Positions 20,408 through 44,878 of a DNA stretch of 64,000 bases are shown here, one piece after another. The notes below the pieces were generated by a model. That model searched no databases, was not told the DNA's origin, and saw only the letters and a program-made list of their open reading frames with translations. The stretch covers positions 1,054,001 through 1,118,000 of the forward strand of contig NC_017243.1 in NCBI RefSeq assembly GCF_000223215.1, given 5' to 3'. The DNA comes from Brachyspira intermedia PWS/A (GTDB lineage: Bacteria; Spirochaetota; Brachyspiria; Brachyspirales; Brachyspiraceae). The position numbers and the translations under genes are program-made. Within the stretch, counting starts at the first letter, position 1, and every line of letters starts with the position of its first letter.

Positions 20408-20435
20408 TTGACTTATAAATGATATATGATATAAT
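20408..20435 (+). promoter_or_regulatory. Predicted promoter of the MATE transporter leader
   Basis: TTGACT (20408-20413) and TATAAT (20430-20435) with a 16-base spacer, about 125 bases before the MATE start codon, leaving a long untranslated leader. Confidence 0.65.
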
Positions 20436-20529
20436 GTATGCCAAGTTCATCGGAGGACTTATTGGAGAGAAAAAATACCAAAGGTTGGATAAGATGTCTA
20501 ATTATTAGATTTCTTATTCAGCCTTTTTT
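20436..20529 (+). promoter_or_regulatory. Terminator-bearing leader, candidate riboswitch or attenuator
   Basis: Between the promoter and the MATE gene, CCAAGT (20441-20446) can pair with ACTTATTGG (20457-20465) around a purine-rich loop, and GTAT (20436-20439) with ATAC (20475-20478). A strong intrinsic terminator follows: AAAGGTTGGATAAGAT pairs with the segment ending TTATTCAGCCTTT, capped by TCTAA-TTA-TTAGA and followed by a T run (20480-20529). CCAA (20478-20481) can alternatively pair with TTGG inside the terminator arm, a plausible antiterminator. MATE genes are known targets of guanidine riboswitches, including the guanidine-IV (mepA) class. I cannot confirm the class by sequence alone. 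Confidence 0.5.
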
Positions 20530-20559
20530 GTTTTTAAACTTTAATATTGGAGTTTATTT

Positions 20560-21878
20560 ATGGATATGCTAAAAACAGATGTAAAAAAATATTTTTTAAA
20601 TATTTATCTGCTAGTTTTGGAAGTGCATTGATAGCGGCAATTTATTCTATAGTTGATGTTGCTATGGTTGGACAATATGAGGGTGATAATGGGGCTGCTG
20701 CTTTGGCTGTATTTGCTCCTATATGGAATGTAATATATGGTATAGGGCTTCTTTTTGGTATAGGAGGTTCTGTACTTTTCAGTAAGGCGAAAGGCTCAGG
20801 AGAATATGATAAACAAAATAATTTCTTTACCGCCTCATTTATAGCTTTATCTGCAGTCATATTCATAGTTTGGATATTATCATTAATATTTGAAGATAAT
20901 ATACTTTATTTTTTCGGTGCTGATGAAGTACTGCTCAATTTAGCTAAAAGATATTTTCTTCCTATAAAAATTATTCTTCCTTTATTTGCTTTCAGTCAAT
21001 TTTTTGCAGCATTTCTTAGAAACGATAATGCACCTATGAAAGCCACTTTAGGAGTTATGGCAGGAGGTATTTTCAATGTATTCGGCGATTATTTTTTTGT
21101 GTTTATATGCGATATGGGTATATTTGGTGCTGGACTTGCAACAGCTATAGGTCAAATTATTACTGCTTCTATATTGATATCGCATTTATTTACTAAAAAA
21201 AATACTTTGAAATTTCAAAAGGTTAATAAATTATTTTCATTATCAAAAAATATTGCTTCTATTGGTTTTTCTACATTCTTTATAGATATAGCGATGGGAA
21301 TACTAGCTTTAATGTTTAATAGGCAGATAATGAAATATTTCGGAACATCAGCATTGGCAGTTTATTCTGTAATAATAAATATTAATATATTAGTTCAGTC
21401 ATCGGCCTATACAATAGGGCAGGCAGCTCAGCCTATAATATCAACTAATCTAGGTGCTGGCAAAATGGATAGAATAAAATCAGCAGTAAAATGTAGTATA
21501 TTTTCAGCTTTGGTTCTTAGTATAGTATATACTTTATTCACATACTTTAATACAGATTTTTTAATGAAAGCATTTATGAAGCCTTCAGAAGAAGCTTTGT
21601 CCATATCAAAAAATATTATGAGAACCTATTTTATATCATTTTTAATATTGCCTTTCAATGTATATGCAACTTATTATTTTCAGGCAATAATGAAGCCTTC
21701 ATCTTCTTTTATAATTGCTGTATTAAGAGGACTTATAATAAGCGGTATTTTAATATTTATAATGCCTTTAATATTTGTTAAAGATAGCATTTGGTATGTT
21801 ATGCCTATTACAGAAGTTATAACTTTTATCATTGCTATGGTATTTTTTATTAAATACAGAACTATATATTCAAAATAG
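20560..21878 (+). CDS. MATE family multidrug/organic cation exporter, frameshifted near the N-terminus
   Basis: About 440 residues with twelve predicted membrane helices. The ASFGSALIAAIYSIVDVAMVGQY opening and a second-half repeat around QAAQPIISTNLGAG are typical of MATE Na+ or H+ antiporters. A GGAG site seven bases upstream points to the ATG at 20560, giving MDMLKTDVKK. That frame leaves the main frame at the seven-A run 20583-20589, and one more A would join it to FFKYLSAS. The continuous open frame instead begins at a TTG (20547) that overlaps the ribosome-binding site, an unlikely start. A terminator-bearing leader precedes it, and an SDR gene follows after 61 bases. Confidence 0.85.
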
Positions 21879-44688: not shown

Positions 44689-44771
44689 GGAGAGTTCGTT
44701 CAATTGGTAGAGCAGCGGTCTTGAAAACCGCCGGGCTAACACCCATGTGGGTTCGAGTCCCACACTCTCCG
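44689..44771 (+). tRNA. tRNA-Ser (anticodon TGA)
   Basis: The acceptor stem GGAGAGT pairs with ACTCTCC, with discriminator G. The anticodon arm GCGGT-CTTGAAA-ACCGC gives TGA. A long variable arm marks a class II tRNA, and the T arm is GTGGGTTCGAGTCCCAC. CCA is not encoded. Confidence 0.93.
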
Positions 44772-44805
44772 ATTATTATAAGACTTAATAGCTTCTTTAT
44801 TATAA

Positions 44806-44878
44806 GGGGCTTTAGCTCATCAGGATAGAGCACTGGTTTCCTAAACCGGGTGGGCAGGTTCGAGTCCTGTAAGCCCCA
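44806..44878 (+). tRNA. tRNA-Arg (anticodon CCT)
   Basis: The acceptor stem GGGGCTT pairs with AAGCCCC, with discriminator A. The anticodon arm CTGGT-TTCCTAA-ACCGG gives CCT, reading AGG. The T arm is CAGGTTCGAGTCCTG. CCA is not encoded. Confidence 0.92.

Follow-up and report, generated by a model that had tools for sequence, protein, structure and literature searches.

The guanidine-IV riboswitch (GGAM-1 or mepA) is an ON switch that works through a terminator, and it is located sometimes before MATE genes and most often before the SMR gene sugE (PMC7736828, PMC11611296). It has been reported in Spirochaetes, and its terminator loop contains a highly conserved adjacent G-U, G66-U67 of 95 Lla (PMC7736828, PMC9788692, PMC11611296). 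Gd4v is a variant of guanidine-IV with an orphan ligand; over half of its members precede a PLP transaminase gene (PRK07324), and MATE and GNAT genes are also found downstream (PMC9788692). Gd4v is enriched in gut bacteria, its terminator bears an additional hairpin, and its structure is composed of two hairpins and a pseudoknot (PMC9788692).

The RNA described here is the leader, about 90 nt long, of a MATE exporter gene in Brachyspira intermedia, within a stretch of 64,000 nucleotides (the window) of a 3.3 Mb genome. The leader lies between a strong promoter and the MATE gene and ends in an intrinsic terminator, and the upstream neighbour of this region is a divergent gene. In the named collection, this leader belongs to Brachyspira records. 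All of the window features given below are on the forward strand. The promoter (20408-20435) is composed of the -35 hexamer TTGACT (20408-20413), a 16-nt spacer and the -10 hexamer TATAAT (20430-20435), and scored 11 out of 12, with an extended -10, in a promoter scan of the window. In nearly all Brachyspira copies, the hexamers are kept and the -10 sits 6-7 nt 5' of AAGUUC; the 5' end of the RNA is predicted to be near 20443. Folding places the terminator at 20480-20529, with the stem formed by 20480-20494 and 20512-20526, an apical hairpin at 20496-20510 and a U-run at 20524-20529. The whole leader folds with -31.6 kcal/mol (z -5.1) and the terminator by itself with -23.7 kcal/mol (z -8.0), and no shuffled sequence was equally good in either case. 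The initial annotation had proposed this promoter and a structured leader with a strong intrinsic terminator before the MATE gene, and both proposals are confirmed, since the promoter, the short leader and the terminator energies and z-scores were all recovered. A simple terminator scan of the window did not list the 20480-20529 terminator.

A putative ribosome-binding site, UUGGAG (20547-20552), identified by inspection, precedes the MATE gene (20560-21878; PF01554 MatE, E 8e-35), which begins at the orthologous start ATG 20560. The protein is nearest to PRK09575/FepA/MepA-type models, yet falls under their cut-offs. In this assembly, the frame from ATG 20560 stops after 23 codons, while it is open at that point in 14 relatives; the difference (20560-20630) is located in an A-run near the start and reflects an assembly error, a phase-variable tract or decay. 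A TTG at 20547 gives an open frame. The sole Rfam matches in the window are two tandem tRNA genes (44689-44878).

The MATE orthologue is present in 15 other genomes of the genus. The alignment of their leaders revealed two near-invariant blocks, AAGUUCAUCGGAGGACUUAUUGGA and ACCAAAGGUUGGAUAAGAUGUCUAAUUAUUAGA, and between them an A-rich stretch whose length varies. Among the 15 intact Brachyspira copies, the 5' and 3' blocks are 97.9% and 98.9% identical, respectively, and the 3' arm of the terminator is 89.6% identical, as compared to 78.6% for the upstream intergenic DNA and 72.1% for third codon positions. The 5' arm of the terminator is thus under stronger constraint than the 3' arm with which it pairs, and it probably serves a second function, namely pairing with the first block. 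In the copy with an internal deletion (L005), P0 and the internal loop, as defined below, are retained and P1 is shortened; in L009 the 5' strand is gone and the MATE gene is still intact. A second MATE locus, found in four genomes of the genus, also bears the element; there it precedes a different MATE subfamily (L206, L207, L208 and L212, about 1501-1551), in species that mostly do not have the first locus. A decayed MATE gene with leader remnants (L059, in genome G012) adjoins an intact SDR gene, in an upstream context unlike that of the window. When the full-length DNA was used as a query, one strong match was obtained in the window's genome; the frequency of a 12-base piece of the motif is near chance level.

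The whole conserved element spans 20445-20498 and was detected by two covariance models, R1 (67.3 bits) and R2 (54.6 bits). When folded up to the GAUGUCU end, the leader forms a closing helix P0, an internal loop and a helix P1 (GACUU-A-UUGG with CCAAAGGUU). In P0, CAUC (20448-20451) pairs with GAUG (20493-20496), which is replaced by a compensatory GGUG facing CACC in L105. The 5' side of the core internal loop, GGAG (20452-20455), is conserved in all three lineages; the GGAGGA portion was imposed by the first search pattern, and the later model matches retain GGAGGA as well. The 3' side of this loop, GGAUAA (20487-20492), also lies within the 5' arm of the terminator. Covariation defines the 5' strand of P1 (GACUU-A-UUGG, 20456-20465) and its 3' strand (CCAA-AGGUU, 20478-20486); the A-rich loop between them (20466-20477) differs in length and sequence within Brachyspira. 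The initial annotation had paired CCAA (20478-20481) with UUGG in the terminator arm. This local hairpin is present, but the partner supported by evolution is UUGG at 20462-20465, i.e. the antiterminator helix P1.

The mutually exclusive folds that had been proposed on that basis do exist in another form: in the window leader, the P0/P1 sensor fold cannot coexist with the terminator, and an alternative 5' hairpin (AAGUUC/GGACUU, 20443-20460), predicted by folding, excludes P1 and is a candidate anti-antiterminator. This hairpin is weakly conserved outside Brachyspira. When the growing transcript was folded, the 5' hairpin dominated up to about 50 nt, P0/P1 became the minimum free energy structure at about 56 nt (-7.9), and the terminator was favoured from about 80 nt (-21.7, later -30.2).

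To look beyond the genus, we scanned one genome per species for the split pattern TCGGAGGAC, gap, GGTTGGATAAGA (21 bases). The scan returned 10 Brachyspira loci and seven others, against a chance expectation that we estimate at about four matches for uniform base composition. The seven other loci, five from Mollicutes-type bacteria (Anaeroplasmataceae and relatives) and two from Clostridia MAGs of ruminant caecum, all have a MATE gene directly downstream, and their P1 helices are wholly different in sequence and still paired. The first covariance model found the element in 25 of the 295 genomes of one Clostridia order, about 23 of them convincing. The improved model detected it in 16 of 391 Clostridia-class genomes, 15 of 296 genomes of the Mollicutes-type class and 18 Brachyspira genomes, with almost nothing else in Spirochaetota, and in four further genomes of a phylum sample; what these counts say about taxonomic spread is limited by first-look filters and by contamination of MAGs. 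Low-scoring matches, such as L106 (inside a coding gene), L209, L210 and L176, were treated as chance. The initial annotation had named a lack of conservation of the upstream fold in homologous leaders among the results that would refute it; this fold is clearly conserved there.

A Selenomonas plasmid carries the element as well, and two further copies, each followed by a MATE gene, were found in a faecal phage-collection record and in a viral-collection contig; these two records are not proof of viral carriage. On the plasmid (pSRC2 of Selenomonas ruminantium; L232, 2501-2593), it precedes an ORF of about 40 codons resembling a truncated MATE start. In the viral-collection contig (L231, 2378-2416, minus strand), it lies just 5' of the MATE gene, and a tyrosine-recombinase-like gene is nearby. 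L231 has no obvious terminator, and may therefore represent another expression platform and another phylum. GNAT genes carried by Selenomonas, Ruminococcus, Treponema and Bacillus plasmids are not preceded by the element.

Covariation was measured over 73 distinct sequences in eight pairs, namely those of P0 and those at the base of P1. Of these pairs, 97.2% are standard; double changes numbered 33, as compared to 7.6 expected from shuffles (0 of 500 shuffles), and the covariation score was 0.257 against 0.158 for shuffled alignments and at most 0.067 for slid controls, in model-made alignments that are biased towards the model's own structure. The P1 pairs alternate among AU, GC, CG, UA and GU. 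It is extremely unlikely that only the terminator or a DNA operator is conserved here, as a strong terminator combined with the palindromes of a repressor: TCTAATTATTAGA is indeed nearly a palindrome, and the terminator very strong, but of the two terminator arms the 5' one is the more conserved, the letters of P1 covary, and the palindrome is absent from the other lineages, so that this explanation is already disfavoured.

P0 is nearly fixed, and its support therefore consists of a few compensatory changes, such as the CACC/GGUG of L105, together with nested tandem copies. Second copies were found in L118 (1009-1117, minus strand), L087 (4157-4284, minus strand), L089 (7367-7500) and L167 (1441-1549, minus strand), placed within the downstream hairpin or the terminator of the first copy. 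Those of L118, L087/L089 and L167 carry quite different P0 helices. The tandem arrangement suggests an independent sensing domain.

These copies also bear on ribosome-mediated attenuation, which is known in several antibiotic-resistance leaders. A short leader ORF with an SD-like GGAGG would be translated here, with translating or stalled ribosomes setting the fold. CGGAGGA does resemble a Shine-Dalgarno sequence, a UUG follows, and most members have an AUG within GAUG. However, the nested tandem copies lack the AUG, and P1 covaries as a helix. The spacer length differs between Brachyspira species and the frame of a leader ORF therefore differs as well; we rejected a leader peptide, as a one-frame leader ORF is not conserved among these species. 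We thus consider attenuation by ribosomes very unlikely.

The loop of P1 is correlated with that of the downstream hairpin. The P1 loop CGCA occurs with the downstream loop UGCG in 16 cases and CGUA with UGAG in 13 cases, with few exceptions to either combination, and both combinations occur among members of the same GNAT subtype. Judging from these letters, a contact between the two loops is likely. CGCA and UGCG are complementary throughout, whereas CGUA and UGAG are incompletely so, and the second loop form therefore needs explaining.

Downstream of 80 model matches, we found 54 MATE genes of four subfamilies, 12 GNAT genes of one acetyltransferase type and two cytidylate-kinase-like genes; the other 12 matches are at contig ends, weak or without an assigned gene. 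Later matches added two MATE genes and two genes read from sequence as MFS-like. A hairpin with a U-run follows in 78 of the 80 matches. In 43 of the 80, the 3' strand of the core is itself the 5' arm of the U-run hairpin. In most other matches, especially in GNAT leaders, this arm is instead provided by the 3' side of a small downstream hairpin; the terminator there competes with this hairpin and not with the core, and the geometry of the switch thus differs between members. Both layouts make the sensor fold and the terminator mutually exclusive, and this is the usual ON-switch logic.

The leader is a real, conserved cis-regulatory RNA. Like riboswitches in general, it combines a conserved leader structure that covaries with an expression platform, and conservation, covariation and gene context make it a well-supported candidate for a terminator-type riboswitch controlling the MATE gene, as had been proposed. 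We consider it probable that it acts as an ON-type transcription-attenuation RNA in cis, most likely as a small-molecule riboswitch. RNA polymerase would make the 5' strand CAUCGGAG and the P1 hairpin first, and the 3' strand GGAUAAGAUG afterwards. Before further synthesis, the RNA would close into the sensor fold composed of P0, the purine loop GGAG/GGAUAA and P1. Without ligand, the 3' strand would change partners to form the terminator's 5' arm, and the transcript would end. With a ligand at the internal loop, in all likelihood a toxic compound that the exporter transports, the sensor fold would be held, the terminator would be blocked and the MATE gene would be transcribed. According to the folding model, the leader RNA left alone should terminate, and a factor holding P0/P1 would permit transcription onward.

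We infer all three of ligand binding, the direction of regulation and the identity of the ligand. Given that genes for export and acetylation lie downstream, the ligand would be toxic and probably resemble an amine; the MATE, GNAT and MFS genes are compatible with a toxic amine, a cation or a drug-like compound. No common regulator gene was seen in the listed neighbourhoods of the window and the non-Brachyspira pattern loci, and the simplest effector is therefore a small molecule that the RNA itself senses, although the effector could instead be a protein or a second RNA. As one such case, the conserved fold might be the target of an RNA-binding antiterminator protein rather than a ligand sensor. 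The RAT antiterminators of the BglG/LicT family are imperfect hairpins that overlap a terminator arm and depend on a protein, and the present element, whose imperfect hairpin contains a conserved internal loop and overlaps the 5' arm of the terminator, shares this general layout. It differs from them in sequence and genes, no adjacent BglG-type gene was seen, no RAT family was matched in Rfam, and the element is found across phyla before differing genes with no neighbouring regulator in common. We therefore regard an antiterminator protein as improbable.

If the riboswitch is confirmed, it would provide a ready reporter for the natural substrates of MATE exporters and of substrate-orphan GNAT enzymes, as the compound that relieves termination is likely to be the compound exported or acetylated. 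The identity of MATE substrates is a standing problem, and the element precedes four MATE subfamilies in gut bacteria, among them Brachyspira, which includes known enteric pathogens. The tandem copies and the apparent loop-loop contact would also be of structural interest.

The initial annotation had offered guanidine-IV or a new ligand class as the identity of the riboswitch. Rfam 15, at gathering and permissive thresholds, gave no match in the window leader or in 27 related loci, and guanidine-I, -II and -III did not match the element, a result that counts against the guanidine proposal to the extent that Rfam 15, whose coverage of guanidine-IV is unconfirmed, includes that class. The lack of an Rfam match is one of the results that the initial annotation had listed as refuting it. 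The permissive scans yielded only chance matches to the terminator hairpin. As a positive control, Rfam detected guanidine-I in SMR leaders of related Clostridia. A search for guanidine-IV in SMR leaders of Clostridia, Mollicutes-type genomes and a Paraclostridium plasmid gave guanidine-I-type leaders or leaders without a class. In one of the SMR loci (L222, about 1400-1480), an SMR gene pair follows the hairpin GACAUC-GCCG-GAUGUC and a terminator whose loop contains AGGCC; by its two hairpins with complementary loops, this might be a guanidine-IV-type leader, and model R2 gave no match to it. In the literature, as covered by main texts available without subscription, the conserved strings are not printed in a riboswitch context, and no MATE/GNAT motif other than guanidine-IV/Gd4v was found.

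The element could be a spirochaete member of the Gd4v motif or of guanidine-IV, in which two hairpins (P1 and the terminator) and a pseudoknot would sense guanidine or a relative. The MATE and GNAT genes, the hairpin on the terminator, the gut enrichment, the ON switch and the occurrence of guanidine-IV in Spirochaetes all fit. P1, the terminator and the apical hairpin are present in the window, CAUC/GAUG, which would cross the terminator stem, is readable as the pseudoknot with P1 as hairpin 1, and the letters of the P1 loop and the downstream loop correlate. On the other hand, an SMR or transaminase gene was identified after none of the 80 matches or the later ones, and the published fold has two hairpins and a pseudoknot, not a nested P0. 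Moreover, GGAUAAGAUG has no GU and the following base varies (U/C/G/A, 23/9/4/3), in a loop mapping made by description, and Rfam, with its unconfirmed guanidine-IV coverage, gave no match. As guanidine-IV and Gd4v were compared by description and not by sequence, we treat identity with either as possible, if doubtful. The candidate terminator-type riboswitch for the MATE gene is thus well supported, and its assignment to guanidine-IV, which lacks an Rfam match, an SMR gene and the conserved adjacent G-U, is not. A new ligand class fits best, with a relation to the orphan-ligand Gd4v as a possibility. The chances are about even that the element represents a class absent from Rfam and, compared by description, distinct from guanidine-IV/Gd4v, characterized by a GGAG/GGAUAA core closed by P0, a P1 loop in contact with the downstream hairpin, and tandem copies that recur; it would sense a toxic small molecule and switch on detoxification genes of the MATE, MFS and GNAT types in Spirochaetota and in several Bacillota classes.

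Among the other known RNAs, the HMP-PP (thiS) riboswitch is likewise a compact aptamer overlapping an intrinsic terminator (PMC6478431), but it is associated with thiamin genes and has no Rfam match to the element. Guanidine-I (RF00442) also occurs in exporter leaders, but it does not match the element in Rfam, and model R2 gives no match to guanidine-I leaders. One strand of L138 (about 1420-1446), CGGAGGGAUAA, resembles the CGGAG and GGAUAA of the core (window 20451-20455 and 20487-20492), a likeness that may be due to chance and serves as a lead only. Guanidine-IV shares with the element the MATE gene among its targets, the occurrence in Spirochaetes and the ON switch through a terminator; in published models of its ligand-bound structure, however, the terminator stem takes part via a kissing loop, whereas here the 3' strand of the core becomes the 5' arm of the terminator. 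Gd4v, again compared by description, differs in that a transaminase gene mostly lies downstream (none was identified here in the groups searched) and in its essential adjacent G-U, which is not conserved here. If the element does belong to Gd4v, this orphan class would be extended to spirochaetes and Mollicutes, and the new covarying sequences would help to solve its fold and ligand. With Gd4v, the element has in common the ON logic through a terminator, a small aptamer beside that terminator, the extra hairpin, the association with MATE and GNAT genes, and the occurrence in gut bacteria and in Bacillota as well as other phyla.
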